A stretch of 45,218 nucleotides of DNA, taken from positions 1 through 45,218 of IMG/VR virus record IMGVR_UViG_3300032093_000241, one strand, 5' to 3'. A model generated the notes under the pieces. That model ran no database searches. It worked only from the letters and a program-made list of their open reading frames with translations, and had not been told where the DNA came from. This document shows positions 4,514 through 41,767 of the stretch, piece by piece. Made by a program: the position numbers and the translations under genes. This stretch comes from a virus. Position 1 is the stretch's first letter; every line of letters begins with the position of its first letter.

Positions 4514-5026
4514 TTAATCGGAGTCTTCTTCGCCGGATACCCAATCAGCATATGGATTTACATCAACTTCACCCTCTTTCTTTGGTTCTTCTTTACCACA
4601 ATCAGCAATTATTTTGTCATAGACTTCTTTAGTGATTGTTGTATCATAACCCTTTTCTTTTAGTTTTGCCTCTGTTTTAGGACCATAGAATCCATCTGTT
4701 TTGATCCCCCCTAAACATTCTTGAACTTTACCTATAACTGCCTTATTACTACAGAATTTTGTGAACGGGAAATCTGAACAATATTTATAAGAACCTGTAG
4801 ATTTTTTTGATGAATCATCTTTCTTTTCGTCCTTTTTTTCTTCACTACCCTTTTTTTCATCCTTTTTATCTTCAGGCGGTATTGAGACGACATCATCTAT
4901 AGTTACTACTTCACCAGATTTATCATAGGTTAATTCTATTTTATTCTCTTTGATGAGTAAACCTAATTTTTTATACTTATCGACAATTGAGGATCGTTCC
5001 TCTTCGTTTACAAATAAATTTTTCAT
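4514..5026 (-). CDS. Tagged peptidoglycan-binding domain protein, 170 aa
   Basis: The N-terminal leader is helical (MKNLFVNEEERSSIVDKY) and reaches LLIKE|N near residue 27, an [L/I]-x-E site. Residues 50-75 are an extremely Lys/Glu/Asp-rich linker. Residues about 90-150 resemble the PG_binding_1 fold: VQECLGGIKTDGFYGPKTEA carries the VQ-x-x-L...DG-x-(F/Y)G-x-x-T signature. Such domains bind cell-wall peptidoglycan. In an encapsidated protein this could help DNA entry or early wall contact. Intergenic gaps to neighbours are 10-22 bp, indicating an operon. Confidence 0.7.
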   Translation of the reverse strand: MKNLFVNEEERSSIVDKYKKLGLLIKENKIELTYDKSGEVVTIDDVVSIPPEDKKDEKKGSEEKKDEKKDDSSKKSTGSYKYCSDFPFTKFCSNKAVIGKVQECLGGIKTDGFYGPKTEAKLKEKGYDTTITKEVYDKIIADCGKEEPKKEGEVDVNPYADWVSGEEDSD

Positions 5027-15494: not shown

Positions 15495-15710
15495 ATGACG
15501 ATGTTATTTAATATTTTAGTTGCCATTGCCAGAATTTATTTGGGCATTAAGTTTCTTTGGGTTTTGATTATGAATCAAGTCAATCCTGAGAATTATCCCT
15601 TAGAAAGTCTTCAGTGGTTTTTATATTTTATGATATTTGATATTTGGTTACACTCCATTTCAAGAAATGTAAAAATGAATGACGATGAAGAAGGAAAAGA
15701 TTTTACTTAA
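15495..15710 (+). CDS. Small membrane protein, 71 aa
   Basis: Two hydrophobic segments (LFNILVAIARIYLGIKFLWVLI and LQWFLYFMIFDIWLHSI) with an acidic cytoplasmic tail ending DDEEGKDF. It has its own TAnnTTTG promoter and no leader site. It converges on the PPK2 gene, overlapping its stop by 4 nt. Could be a host inner-membrane modifier or a holin-type protein; no family recognised. Confidence 0.55.
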   Translation: MTMLFNILVAIARIYLGIKFLWVLIMNQVNPENYPLESLQWFLYFMIFDIWLHSISRNVKMNDDEEGKDFT

Positions 15711-16825
15711 TTTTGTTCTGGTTTAAGAACCGTAAGTGCTTCAGGATATTCAACATCTAAGAAAGCTTCATTTTTATCGTCATAAGGTATGTTTTTTAGA
15801 ACATATCTTATGGCATTTAGTCCTGATACTCTTTTATCTATCGCATCTAAAACAACCCAAGGATTGTTCAAAGTTGAGGTTTCATCAAACAATTTATCTT
15901 TATATCGGGTAAATTTGTCCCATAAATCTTGCATTTTAGCGTCAGATTCCGAGTATTTCCACTTTTTTAAGGGTGATTCCTGTCTGGCTTTAAATCGTTT
16001 AGCCTGAGTCTCCTTATCGATTGAAAACCATAGTTTAAACAGGTAGTCCCCATCCTTTACAAGATCATTTTCAAAGGTAGCAACATTATTCATAAAGTCT
16101 TTATACTCCTCAGGGGTTCCATAACCAGCAACAGGTTCAATAAGTCCTCTATTATACCAACTTCTATCAAACAGATTGATTTTACCCTTCTCAATTTGAT
16201 TTCTATATCTATCCCACCAATTTTTTCTTTCTTCTAAAGTAGGTATACCCAAAGCAATAATCTTATAACCTATTTTAAGATTCAGATTTTCTACAAACTT
16301 TTTAATTGTGGATCCTTTACCAGCACTATCACGACCTTCAAAAACTATAATGAGTGTTTTATTTGTTTTTTGTAACCACTCTTGTAGTTTTAATAATTCT
16401 ACCTGTAATCCAAATAATTCTTTTTTATATACCTTTTTTGAAACAACTGATGGTTCGACTGGTTCTAACGAGTAGTCATCAAATCCTGGTTCTTCTATAT
16501 CATAAGTTACTTTTTCTCTTTTTTCTAAAGATTTTAGAAGTTTTTGAAAAAATGACTCCACATTTTTCTTCTGATTTCCTTTTAGTTTTAGTATTTTTTT
16601 AAGTCCTCTATCTAAAAGATTATAATCAACAATTTTGTTTTCACCTTGTTCGAGAATCTTATCCAAAATACCTTTAATCTTATTAGACATAAGGTTATTT
16701 TGTTCCAATTCCATAGAAATACGAGACATAATCTCCTCTTTTGAGGGTTGTTCGTCCTCTTTGATAATTGGGTTAATACCCATAATACTATGTATTCTAT
16801 TTAATTCTTCCTTCACAAGATTCAT
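15707..16825 (-). CDS. ppk2: Polyphosphate kinase 2 (PPK2) with N-terminal leader, 372 aa
   Basis: Residues 130-355 are a clear PPK2 domain. It has a Walker A FEGRDSAGKGSTIKK (near 162-176), LFDRSWYNRG (218-227) with the catalytic D-R-S-W-Y-N-R signature, and a lid with KWKYSESDAKMQDLWDKFTR. PPK2 transfers phosphate between polyphosphate and nucleoside mono- or diphosphates. Ahead of it lie ~110 extra residues starting MNLVKEELNRIHSIMGI and reaching PIIKE|D (I-x-E) near residue 24, the same leader type as the packaged-protein candidates. If packaged, the enzyme could raise host nucleotide supply at infection. Adjacent to a small membrane gene (1-bp gap). Confidence 0.85.
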   Translation of the reverse strand: MNLVKEELNRIHSIMGINPIIKEDEQPSKEEIMSRISMELEQNNLMSNKIKGILDKILEQGENKIVDYNLLDRGLKKILKLKGNQKKNVESFFQKLLKSLEKREKVTYDIEEPGFDDYSLEPVEPSVVSKKVYKKELFGLQVELLKLQEWLQKTNKTLIIVFEGRDSAGKGSTIKKFVENLNLKIGYKIIALGIPTLEERKNWWDRYRNQIEKGKINLFDRSWYNRGLIEPVAGYGTPEEYKDFMNNVATFENDLVKDGDYLFKLWFSIDKETQAKRFKARQESPLKKWKYSESDAKMQDLWDKFTRYKDKLFDETSTLNNPWVVLDAIDKRVSGLNAIRYVLKNIPYDDKNEAFLDVEYPEALTVLKPEQN

Positions 16826-17703: not shown

Positions 17704-17835
17704 ATGGCAAAGAAATCATCTTCTTCATCCAACTCAGTCAAAATGACTTTCGGAGTTCGTAGATCTGGCAAACACGCTAAAAGGCAGAGTCCCAAAGCAA
17801 AAGCCACAAAGAAGTATCAGGGACAAGGACGCTAG
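17704..17835 (+). CDS. Basic 43-residue protein ending KKYQGQGR
   Basis: MAKKSSSSSNSVKMTFGVRR opens a Lys/Arg/Ser-rich peptide that ends with KATKKYQGQGR; a short basic protein ending Y-x-GQGR is seen in several large phages (recalled). It has a clear host-type promoter 37 bp upstream. Charge and size suggest nucleic acid or ribosome binding, but no function is established. The transcript continues into a structured noncoding region without an intervening terminator. Confidence 0.65.
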   Translation: MAKKSSSSSNSVKMTFGVRRSGKHAKRQSPKAKATKKYQGQGR

Positions 17836-18127
17836 TCCCCTTTGTCAACCAAATTGGACCTGTGGGTTATAATAGAGTGTTTCTCCCGAGCACGAATGTT
17901 CCCTCAGTAAAATAATAAAAACTACAAGGTTATCACGGAGCGTTTTGAATAGTGGGTTTGGCAACTTCCCCGACATAATTGAACGAATCAAAAGTCACAA
18001 AAAGGTTTGCCGGGTTTGGTGTCTTTCCCGTCCCAAAGGTTGGTTGTCCACTCACAACAGGGTTTCTAAGGTTTACCCAACACATTAAAAAACCGCGCAA
18101 GGAAAGGGAGCGACGGCTCCCTTTTTT
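17836..18127 (+). ncRNA. Structured noncoding RNA candidate (RNA A)
   Basis: About 290 bp with no ORF and visibly higher G+C than the surroundings, ending in a strong intrinsic terminator. It contains a hairpin GTTG-TCCACTCA-CAAC (18043-18058) whose loop recurs in a second candidate RNA near 39288, on a different stem. The order CACAAAAAGG (17996-18005) then this hairpin is also shared. It may be processed from the transcript of the 43-residue gene, or be a long regulatory 3' UTR. Not recognised as tmRNA, RNase P or 6S RNA. Confidence 0.55.
18103..18127 (+). terminator. Intrinsic terminator
   Basis: GGGAGC-GACG-GCTCCC hairpin (18106-18121) followed by six T. Ends the transcript begun at the 17660 promoter. 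The stop of the convergent gene at 18126 abuts it. Confidence 0.85.
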
Positions 18128-20290: not shown

Positions 20291-20518
20291 TTAGGATAAT
20301 TTTGTATACATTTTTAACTTTTCAGTCTCGAAGTCTACCCTATTTTTTTCAAAAAGTTCAAAAAACTCTTCATTATGGGTATCCCATTTTTTCATAAAGT
20401 TGGTATACAAATTATTAGTCACAGATACTTGATCAATTGTTTGACAAGATTTCAAAACATCTAAAATCCACTCAAACTCAGATATAATATTGTTAAGATT
20501 CAGAAATGATTTGTTCAT
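20291..20518 (-). CDS. Hypothetical protein, 75 aa
   Basis: Helical protein with MNKSFLNLNNIISEFEWILD at the N-terminus and alternating Lys/Glu. Overlaps the upstream HAD-like gene by 26 nt, so it is coupled to it. No domain recognised. Confidence 0.45.
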   Translation of the reverse strand: MNKSFLNLNNIISEFEWILDVLKSCQTIDQVSVTNNLYTNFMKKWDTHNEEFFELFEKNRVDFETEKLKMYTKLS

Positions 20519-21011
20519 TTTTCTTGATTTTGTTTTTTAGTATGTCTACCACAATTTCTTGATTCAAGCCTGTCTCACTATTTCTAACCATTACGAAGTT
20601 TTCTTTTGGTAATCCGATAAGAGACAGATCATCAATTGCCACCCAATGATTAGGTTGGTTTTTTTCAACCCATTTTAGAATCTCACGCTCTCTTGCCATC
20701 TCAACTTGAGACCACTCAGACATTTTTTTGGGTAAATTTTTCTCAGTAACTTCTTTTAGTCTGTCAGGATTCATTTTATGAAACTTGAAGATCTCCTTTA
20801 ACTCTGATAAGTCAAATTGTAATCTCCAATCAGAAGACAATACAATGTCCAAATCAAATTGTTCAACAATTTCAGATAGAATATCACAACACTCTTGATT
20901 CCACCCATATGGAACTAATTTACCTGTTGACAAAACAATGGGTGAGTCTTCATCCCAATGGCTTTCGGTCGCTAAAACCCCGTCGATATCTAAAAACAGA
21001 ACATTTTTCAT
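20493..21011 (-). CDS. HAD-superfamily hydrolase-like protein, 172 aa
   Basis: FLDIDGVLA (D8, D10) is HAD motif I, the nucleophile loop. VLSSDWRLQF is motif II, and WVAIDDLSL near residue 123 supplies the acidic motif IV. The layout matches the small HAD domains found alone or in RNA-repair enzymes (HAD_SAK type). Likely a phosphatase acting on nucleotide or nucleic acid ends, by analogy. It overlaps the downstream 75-aa gene and ends one base before the metallopeptidase gene. Confidence 0.75.
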   Translation of the reverse strand: MKNVLFLDIDGVLATESHWDEDSPIVLSTGKLVPYGWNQECCDILSEIVEQFDLDIVLSSDWRLQFDLSELKEIFKFHKMNPDRLKEVTEKNLPKKMSEWSQVEMAREREILKWVEKNQPNHWVAIDDLSLIGLPKENFVMVRNSETGLNQEIVVDILKNKIKKNEQIISES

Positions 21012-35267: not shown

Positions 35268-35771
35268 ATGAATATATTCTTCTTAGATCGAGATGTTAAA
35301 AAATGTGCTCAGTATCATTGTGATAAGCATGTTGTTAAAATGATTTTGGAATCCGCGCAACTTTTGTGCTCGGCTCATCATATGACCGACCAAGTAACCG
35401 ACCAAGTTCCGTATAAGTTATCACACAAGAATCACCCCTGTTCTATATGGGTTAGAGAATCTCTGTCACATTATTTATATCTTTGTGAACTTGGACTCGA
35501 ACTTTGTAAAGAATACTCCTATAGATACGGAAAACGACATAAATCACAAGAGGTAATAGAATGGTGTTTAACCAATAAAGTAAAAATTTTAGATAAAGGT
35601 TTTTCAGACCCACCAAAGGCGATGCCTGATGAATATAAAGTTAAAGATGCTGTAGAATCTTATAGGAATTACTACAAAGGAGCCAAGATGGAATTTTGTA
35701 AGTGGAAAAATAGACCTGTTCCTGAGTGGGTTACGGAATCGGTGAAGATTGTGGTGGAAACCAACCCATAG
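35268..35771 (+). CDS. Conserved phage protein with CDKHVVKM motif, 167 aa
   Basis: QYHCDKHVVKMILESAQLLC followed by SHKNHPCSIWVRES, YRYGKRHKS and PDEYK is a compact cytoplasmic domain conserved in many phage and bacterial proteins (recalled). It has been loosely linked to DNA-repair glycosylase-type families, but I do not see enough to assert an enzyme. It is expressed from a host-type promoter, unlike most neighbours. Its last 41 nt overlap the convergent 35731 gene. Confidence 0.6.
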   Translation: MNIFFLDRDVKKCAQYHCDKHVVKMILESAQLLCSAHHMTDQVTDQVPYKLSHKNHPCSIWVRESLSHYLYLCELGLELCKEYSYRYGKRHKSQEVIEWCLTNKVKILDKGFSDPPKAMPDEYKVKDAVESYRNYYKGAKMEFCKWKNRPVPEWVTESVKIVVETNP

Positions 35772-39057: not shown

Positions 39058-39066
39058 GTATATTTG
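39036..39066 (+). promoter_or_regulatory. Bacteroidota-type promoter for tRNA-Leu
   Basis: TATATTTG (39059-39066) with TTG (39036-39038), 20 bp upstream. The tRNA starts 6 bp downstream of the box. The -33 element lies inside the preceding terminator hairpin. Confidence 0.65.
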
Positions 39067-39170: not shown

Positions 39171-39310
39171 AAAACCTAATTATCAATATTAGGCACAACA
39201 TTATTATCAATATTAGACACAAAAAGAGGTTGATTGGGATATAGGTGCGACCCCTTAGGTAAGTAACGCCAATCGTAAAAGTAGATGTCCACTCACCCAT
39301 CTTCTACTTT
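39171..39310 (+). ncRNA. Structured noncoding RNA candidate (RNA B) after tRNA-Leu
   Basis: About 140 bp without an ORF. It contains hairpin CCTAAT/ATTAGG (39175-39180, 39188-39193), a 6-bp closing stem GATTGG/CCAATC (39232-39237 with 39269-39274), and an outer stem AGTA/TACT plus GATG/CATC around the loop TCCACTCACC (39288-39297). The loop is shared with RNA A at 18047-18054 but the stem bases differ, which suggests a conserved RNA motif with compensatory changes. Likely part of the tRNA-Leu transcript. Confidence 0.5.
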
Positions 39311-39342
39311 CCTTATTATAAAAAGTTAAAATTAATTTTTAA

Positions 39343-40203: not shown

Positions 40204-41291
40204 GCTTCGTTGTTTTCAAACTTACTTATTATTTTGGTTGCACATGCATCCAAAGACCCAAGAGTTGTAACTTGTTCACTACCTCTTTTCAATGTGATAT
40301 TTGGAAATCCCTTATAAACCACAACATACCTTTTAGTTTTTGTGTCATATCTTTCGATGGTAACATAAGGGACATCTGCATGAACACCTTTATCCCTATC
40401 CTTAACATTTATTCCTTGAATTGCCAATGTTATGGAATTTTGTCCCTTCGATAATATTTCAGAAGCTGTTTCCGTATCTAATGTCCAAGTGCAAACTCTA
40501 TTTTTACCATCAACTTTACGAACAACAGGAACTTTTTGGAAAAGCCCTGAAACCGTTTCAGGTGGTGTTTGATTTTCACCCTTGTTATTTAAATTTGCGG
40601 TCCCAATCCAAACACCATTCATCAGAACTTTAAAAATACCCTCGTTACAATTATGAACAGTAGGGAATTTTGTTAAATGTTTTTCTCTATTATATTCTAC
40701 GGAGACTCTAAGATTACCGATACATTCACCCTTTGTCTTGACAGACATTTGAATTCTAACAAATTGATCTTTTTTAAATAAATCTCTCAAAGACTTACAT
40801 TCACTTGAATTGAGATTTGATCCGCACACTTTTTGATACTCAGATTTATTATATTCTGTTGATCCTACGATTGGTTTTATATTAACTGTAGGTCTGTTTT
40901 TAATTAAACCTTTTCCTTGTAAATTATCTAATTCGCTCTCAATTTTTGTTTTGATGGTTTCCCCTCTAAATTTTGCAAGATCACCTGTGTTTAGAGGTTT
41001 ATTTTTTTCTTTATCGTAATTAGGTAATTGAGATTCCCCAACTTCAATTGTTAATGTTATATCTGCTGTAGGATTTTCTGTTAAGAAATTAGAAATTTCA
41101 CCAAGTTTTACTTGAAAATCTTTTTTTACTGTATCGGGTAATTTACCGTAACTATAATATCCCGCATCCCAATTTCCTGTAATATCTATTGTTTTTGATT
41201 TACCTTCCTTTTCAGTTCTGATTTGTTCACTAATAACCTTTTTTACAATTCTGTAAAGATCTTGTTCGGTTAGTTTTACTATTCTTTTCAT
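40200..41291 (-). CDS. Tagged OmpA-like domain protein, 363 aa
   Basis: Leader MKRIVKLTEQDLYRIVKKVI then SE|Q, matching the cleavage consensus. Residues about 40-110 (FQVKLGEISNFLTENPTADI then TLTIEVGESQLP) have the helix-strand pattern of OmpA C-terminal peptidoglycan-binding domains, with a GES-x-L segment in place of the usual NxxLSxxRA. The C-terminal 200 residues are a beta-rich domain with paired Cys. It may contact peptidoglycan during DNA entry. ATAAATAT (41302-41309) precedes the start by 10 bp. Domain call is tentative. Confidence 0.55.
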   Translation of the reverse strand: MKRIVKLTEQDLYRIVKKVISEQIRTEKEGKSKTIDITGNWDAGYYSYGKLPDTVKKDFQVKLGEISNFLTENPTADITLTIEVGESQLPNYDKEKNKPLNTGDLAKFRGETIKTKIESELDNLQGKGLIKNRPTVNIKPIVGSTEYNKSEYQKVCGSNLNSSECKSLRDLFKKDQFVRIQMSVKTKGECIGNLRVSVEYNREKHLTKFPTVHNCNEGIFKVLMNGVWIGTANLNNKGENQTPPETVSGLFQKVPVVRKVDGKNRVCTWTLDTETASEILSKGQNSITLAIQGINVKDRDKGVHADVPYVTIERYDTKTKRYVVVYKGFPNITLKRGSEQVTTLGSLDACATKIISKFENNEA

Positions 41292-41301
41292 ATTATAATT
41301 A

Positions 41302-41309
41302 ATAAATAT
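41302..41309 (-). promoter_or_regulatory. ATATTTAT promoter-like octamer
   Basis: Exact minus-strand copy 10 bp before ATG 41291. Confidence 0.5.
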
Positions 41310-41340
41310 TTGAAATAATAGATATTTTATTGTATATTTG
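41310..41340 (+). promoter_or_regulatory. Bacteroidota-type promoter for RNA C and tRNA-Arg
   Basis: TATATTTG (41333-41340) with TTG (41310-41312), 20 bp upstream. Followed by TATTCTA, as at two other host-type boxes. Transcription would begin at about the closing stem of the RNA candidate. Confidence 0.7.
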
Positions 41341-41346
41341 TATTCT

Positions 41347-41483
41347 ATTGTGAATCACCCTTCTCCGTGGGGAATCTACTCGAGCTCTAAATGATACAAT
41401 AAACGGACCTATAGTTGGATCGACGGATCCTAACCCTTCGTGGTCTGAGGGGATTGTAGTCAGACCTGAAACAGATTCACAAT
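41347..41483 (+). ncRNA. Structured RNA candidate (RNA C) upstream of tRNA-Arg
   Basis: A perfect 10-bp closing stem ATTGTGAATC (41347-41356) with GATTCACAAT (41474-41483) brackets a 137-nt domain. Inside are GGATC-GACG-GATCC (41417-41430) and GGTCTGA/TCAGACC (41442-41448 with 41460-41466, 11-nt loop). A strong promoter ends 6 bp before it and tRNA-Arg follows 8 bp after it. No ORF. Shape and promoter strongly suggest an independent small RNA, processed with the tRNA. Not recognised as any known RNA class. Confidence 0.65.
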
Positions 41484-41491
41484 TTTAATAT

Positions 41492-41568
41492 GGTTCCGTA
41501 GCTCAGCTGGATAGAGCAACAGATTTCTAATCTGTCGGTCATTGGTTCGAATCCAATCGGGATCACCA
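41492..41568 (+). tRNA. tRNA-Arg (TCT)
   Basis: Acceptor GGTTCCG (41492-41498) pairs with CGGGATC (41558-41564) with two G-U pairs. Anticodon stem ACAGA/TCTGT with loop TTTCTAA and anticodon TCT (41526-41528). T loop GTTCGAAT present. ACCA encodes discriminator plus CCA. Decodes AGA, frequent in this AT-rich window. Confidence 0.9.
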
Positions 41569-41572
41569 CAAA

Positions 41573-41603
41573 AAAACCCTCACTAAAAAAAAGTGGGGGT
41601 TTT
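41573..41603 (+). terminator. Intrinsic terminator after tRNA-Arg
   Basis: AAACCCTCACT pairs with AGTGGGGGTTT around an A-rich loop, followed by a T-rich stretch. Confidence 0.75.
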
Positions 41604-41605
41604 GT

Positions 41606-41613
41606 ATATTTAT
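41606..41613 (+). promoter_or_regulatory. ATATTTAT promoter-like octamer
   Basis: Exact copy 4 bp before ATG 41618. Confidence 0.5.
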
Positions 41614-41617
41614 TAGT

Positions 41618-41767
41618 ATGTCAGAGAAAGAAAAACCTAAGAAAAACACAGATCCAAAACAATCTCACCAAAATAATTACATCAAAAAGAAAAAAACCTT
41701 TAGGATGGGTGGTAAAAGAGGTGGAAACAATCTATTTTTTAATTTTAAGATGGATCTACCTTATTAG
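41618..41767 (+). CDS. Small basic protein, 49 aa
   Basis: MSEKEKPKKNTDPKQSHQNN opens a Lys/Asn-rich peptide continuing through KKKKTFRMGGKRGG and ending FKMDLPY. Highly basic with a single short hydrophobic patch near the end. ATATTTAT at 41606-41613 is 4 bp before ATG. Could bind DNA or RNA; unknown. Confidence 0.5.
   Translation: MSEKEKPKKNTDPKQSHQNNYIKKKKTFRMGGKRGGNNLFFNFKMDLPY

Follow-up and report, generated by a model that had tools for sequence, protein, structure and literature searches.

RNA C, a candidate stem-closed non-coding RNA gene upstream of tRNA-Arg(UCU) in a large Bacteroidota-type phage

The plus strand of a 45,218-base virus record in IMG/VR (hereafter the window, meaning the whole of the DNA that we analyzed) carries at 41347–41483 a 137-nt element, RNA C, whose two ends pair with each other and which is followed directly by a tRNA-Arg(UCU) gene. 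The carrier is a large bacteriophage of the lake or Bacteroidota type. In our preferred reading, to which we give a probability of about 0.6, RNA C is a genuine non-coding RNA gene, the first cistron of an RNA C–tRNA-Arg(UCU)–terminator unit, from which RNase P releases it as a free-standing RNA. RNA C is a credible small orphan non-coding RNA of strong anatomy, and its interest lies mostly in the class of RNAs that it indicates.

Anatomy of RNA C and its transcription unit

The closing stem consists of a 5' arm, ATTGTGAATC (41347–41356), and a 3' arm, GATTCACAAT (41474–41483), which pair at all ten positions, as a sequence-only reading of the window had claimed. The pair probabilities in this stem are mostly 0.98–1.0, and the two outermost pairs fray to 0.60 and 0.86. 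The same reading described two internal hairpins, both of which we found, with unequal support. The first, GUUGGAUC/GAUCCUAAC at 41414–41434, has the 5-bp core GGATC/GATCC (41417–41421 with 41426–41430) and a core pair probability of about 0.96–0.99. The second, the 7-bp hairpin GGUCUGA/UCAGACC with an 11-nt loop at 41442–41466 (GGTCTGA/TCAGACC in the DNA), is less certain, its pair probability of about 0.6 giving it moderate support in the ensemble. The internal structure is a prediction made on a single sequence. A possible pseudoknot, CCCUUC/GAGGGG, and the palindrome CUCGAG were also seen inside RNA C, again in this one sequence. No ORF of at least 40 aa overlaps the element on either strand, which bears out the description of these 137 nt as lacking an ORF.

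A promoter of the Bacteroidetes type precedes the stem. It comprises a -33-type element, TTGAAA (41310–41315, within ATTTGAAA; consensus scan), and a -7 box, TATATTTG (41333–41340), that matches the consensus TAnnTTTG exactly; the spacer from TTGAAA to the TATATT of the box is 17 nt. The box ends 6 nt upstream of the closing stem, exactly where the promoter had been placed before. In Flavobacterium, the TAnnTTTG box is located at -12 to -5 (PMC9723704), so that the +1 position of RNA C is predicted near 41345. The same box occurs on the plus strand at 39059–39066, 6 nt before the first base (39073) of tRNA-Leu, the window's other plus-strand tRNA, and the distance from box to gene is therefore identical for the RNA C stem and for tRNA-Leu in the window.

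Downstream of RNA C, an 8-nt linker (41484–41491, +) leads to the second cistron, tRNA-Arg (UCU) at 41492–41568 (+), which was identified by ARAGORN and by Rfam (RF00005, 68 bits) and has an encoded CCA. An intrinsic-terminator-like hairpin with a 12-pair stem and a T-rich tail follows at 41573–41603 (+), in agreement with the earlier claim of a tRNA and a terminator at this place. Promoter, stem, tRNA and terminator thus stand in the correct order inside 294 bp.

This arrangement suggests the following pathway. RNA C would be transcribed from its own promoter, with its start no more than 2 nt away from the 5' arm of the stem. RNase P matures the 5' ends of tRNAs, and a cut at the 5' end of tRNA-Arg (41491/41492) would leave an RNA of about 145 nt. 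The 10-bp helix would then seal the ends of the released RNA and protect it against exonucleases, and RNA C would persist as a free-standing structured RNA, possibly acting in trans, as is thought for T4 RNA C/D and GOLLD.

Stem statistics and homolog searches

Two properties set RNA C apart from chance sequence. First, a 10-bp stem joining the ends of the 41341–41491 segment arose in 1 of 2000 dinucleotide shuffles. Second, RNA C has a G+C content of 45%, whereas the window averages 31% and only 1% of 137-base windows are as rich. The overall fold, in contrast, has ordinary thermodynamics: its folding energy is -37.6, the shuffles average -33.0 (z -1.24), 24 of 200 shuffles were equal or better, and the stability of the whole is unremarkable. 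The case is therefore carried by the closing stem and the composition. Elsewhere in the window, 13 further stems of 10 bp span a similar distance, and three of them contain at least three G/C.

The searches for relatives, which were of limited depth and ran on collections that may lack records very close to the window, gave neither a family nor a homolog, consistent with the novelty claimed for this RNA. With Rfam 15 at gathering thresholds, only three tRNAs matched in the whole window, and at E values up to 10 the region 41250–41620 contained, besides the tRNA, no family match for RNA C beyond chance level. The GOLLD model (RF02032) likewise had no match in the window at its gathering score, nor in 41250–41620 at E up to 10. 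RNA C alone had no blastn match among 50,697 phage records, and the region with its surroundings retrieved tRNA matches only. A covariance model built from the single sequence found no homolog in 50 related records, the longest of which has 635 kb; five matches at E 0.1–1 were judged to be chance, none being near a tRNA. Exact core patterns, which are insensitive to diverged relatives, returned chance matches, both as 16-mers and 15-mers over IMG/VR and as an 18-mer over genomes; the matches inspected were coding, and wider similarity was not found. Smith-Waterman comparison with about 210 upstream spacers reached at best z 3.0, which is not significant given the number of comparisons. No relatives of the two proteins encoded near RNA C were found in IMG/VR. 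A scan for the stem pattern included, among the matches listed, an RNA of another phage (L277:4413–4536, +) that is likewise stem-closed and lies just after tRNA-Gly; it was rejected as a homolog of RNA C for having neither sequence nor model similarity. Its stem has 12 bp or so and its z is -1.9, and the tRNA cluster around it belongs to a G+C-rich phage of 266 kb.

That no relative retaining the RNA C sequence was found would also be expected if an earlier gene of a tRNA island, for a tRNA or some other RNA, had decayed and left the element as a passively transcribed remnant, and phage tRNA islands do turn over quickly. Decay sits poorly, however, with a perfect closing helix and a high G+C content against a 31% background, and a search at E values up to 10 detected no trace of a tRNA within RNA C; we consider such an origin quite improbable. 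We also see very little reason to regard RNA C as a small self-cleaving ribozyme (HDV-like theta or hammerhead) that trims the tRNA. An association with phage tRNAs is known for HDV-like theta ribozymes (PMC10879173), which resemble RNA C in being phage-borne and tRNA-adjacent. They are located 3' of a tRNA and cleave at its 3' end, whereas RNA C lies 5' of its tRNA, is closed end to end and starts where transcription is predicted to begin, with no tRNA directly upstream that could offer the theta cleavage site. Furthermore, no ribozyme family matched at E up to 10, and the RNA C sequence lacks the hammerhead core CUGANGA.

Closed RNAs upstream of tRNAs in related phages

Relatives of the carrier were collected through the pyrimidine-dimer glycosylase encoded in the window (35268–35771), which gave 80 loci at 73–84% identity on contigs as long as 294 kb; another 29 loci came from a pattern search for tRNA-Arg(UCU). 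The tRNA clusters of these phages contain many non-coding segments. GOLLD was present in 12 of 31 related large-phage records (L140:4442–4857, L019:8345–8750, L018:3135–3536 and further records), and where examined it lay directly upstream of tRNA-Met, at a gap of 7 nt (L018) to 23 nt (L140). Three further families, none of which matched Rfam, were recognized, and it is in these families, and not in RNA C, that covariation was observed. Family A (L019, L118, L056, L074 and L161) immediately precedes tRNA-Arg or tRNA-Met; in its five sequences the closing helix is 100% paired, three of the nine pairs are changed on both sides, and the pairing is destroyed when the columns are slid by 1–3. Family B (L016, L019, L023 and L161) lies 4–6 nt upstream of tRNA-Arg and, in L016 and L023, adjoins at a gap of 6 nt a tRNA-Arg(UCU), the same type as that of the window; its three distinct sequences show both-sided changes at four pairs, and two of these pairs belong to the inner closing helix. 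Family C is a conserved structured RNA found in the window itself, after tRNA-Leu (GUUGAUUGGG...GCCAAUCGUAAAAGUAGAUGUCCACUCACCCAUCUUCUACUUU, 39227–39313, +), and at ten related loci; three pairs, located in two hairpins, show compensatory changes.

The slot directly upstream of tRNAs in these large phages is enriched in long closing stems. Among 234 distinct upstream segments, counting closing stems that end within 12 nt of the tRNA, we observed 22 with 8 bp or more, 8 with 9 bp or more and 4 with 10 bp or more, where shuffling gave 5.05, 1.75 and 0.4. These segments, taken from related phages, are not independent; RNA C itself is among the four longest, and of the eight, the one before tRNA-Pro in L161 resembles a tRNA missed by the gene finder. 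RNA C matches the architecture of this class, being non-coding, closed by a long helix and within about 10 nt of a same-strand tRNA. Family B resembles RNA C in that it is stem-closed and just upstream of tRNA-Arg, partly of the same UCU type, and it differs in sequence and in its two-tier closing helix. Membership of RNA C in family A or B was rejected, the best scores being at chance level (4.0 bits with model R3 and 4.5 bits with model R2, respectively). Since the family models fail on RNA C, it belongs to the class by architecture only.

The families bear on a further explanation, in which RNA C is a cis-acting 5' leader of tRNA-Arg that guides its folding, presents it to RNase P or acts as an attenuator, and has no function after cleavage. 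RNA C is only 8 nt from the tRNA and shares its promoter, and between the two we saw neither a second -7 box nor a terminator, as a leader would have it. The lack of a terminator-like hairpin before tRNA-Arg at the same time speaks against this explanation. In addition, tRNA-Leu starts 6 nt past its own promoter, so a tRNA needs no such leader, and family A is not tied to one tRNA, preceding both Arg and Met. Since other RNAs occupy the position before the same tRNA-Arg type (family B) and one family precedes different tRNAs (family A), an independent product is, by analogy, more likely than a leader needed by the tRNA, and we hold the leader function to be doubtful. That RNA C is a stem-closed non-coding RNA which has a promoter of its own and is placed in a transcription unit with tRNA-Arg draws good support from the anatomy, the base composition and the comparison with RNAs of related phages that covary and occupy an equivalent position; transcription, processing and stability are inferred.

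The relatives also brought up the idea that RNA C is a phage Y-RNA-like RNA serving a Ro60/Rsr-like (TROVE) protein. Proteins with a TROVE domain occur in 4 of 31 related records (L141:3194–4819, +; L221:8619–10226, -; L222:8190–9830, +; L223:7088–8539, +), two of them inside tRNA clusters, and Y RNAs are also closed by pairing of both ends. The other 27 records have no TROVE match, though many are fragments, and the window, itself a fragment, does not encode such a protein. The sole Y-RNA match, YrlA at 13.2 bits (threshold 69; E 7.9), extends into the tRNA and scores no better than chance. A Y-RNA-like role thus appears highly unlikely for RNA C, which we continue to treat as an orphan RNA gene.

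Upstream segments in L141 (about 4855–5002), L022, L040 and L083 proved to resemble tRNA-Leu genes that the tRNA finder had missed, with an apparent extra hairpin of some 25–30 nt in the D-loop region.

Known phage RNAs, wider meaning and other features of the window

Among known RNAs, GOLLD shares with RNA C the position of a phage non-coding RNA directly upstream of a tRNA. It is hundreds of nucleotides long (the Rfam model has 416 positions), compared with 137 nt for RNA C, and it forms nanocages (PMC12286853), for which RNA C has no known counterpart. RNAC and RNAD of phage T4 belong to the T4 tRNA cluster and are similar in size to RNA C. They are small phage RNAs of unknown function (PMC9697503) and differ from RNA C in that they are expressed, whereas RNA C is predicted; homology to them was rejected, as RNA C had no blastn match in the phage collection.

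Together with ROOL, GOLLD and T4 RNAC/RNAD are long-standing puzzles as tRNA-linked phage RNAs without a known function. The case of RNA C suggests that they are the conspicuous members of a broader practice, large phages stocking their tRNA operons with diverse closed RNAs. Several of these are small (about 100–180 nt) and easily synthesized, deleted and pulled down, which would make the role of such RNAs experimentally tractable. On a considerably more speculative reading, RNA C would be one of a large undescribed repertoire of small stem-closed RNAs that stand beside GOLLD in the tRNA operons of large Bacteroidota-type phages and that, while differing in sequence, would have in common a slot, a release mechanism and a role in infection, possibly in Ro60-like complexes.

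Three other features of the window are worth recording. At 17705–18126 (+), a small basic ORF of 43 aa precedes some 250 nt of G+C-rich non-coding sequence, whose folding energy is not unusual, and a terminator-like hairpin. On the opposite strand, the phage encodes a polyphosphate kinase 2 (PPK2; 15707–16825, -) and a HAD domain of RNA-repair proteins (20493–21011, -).
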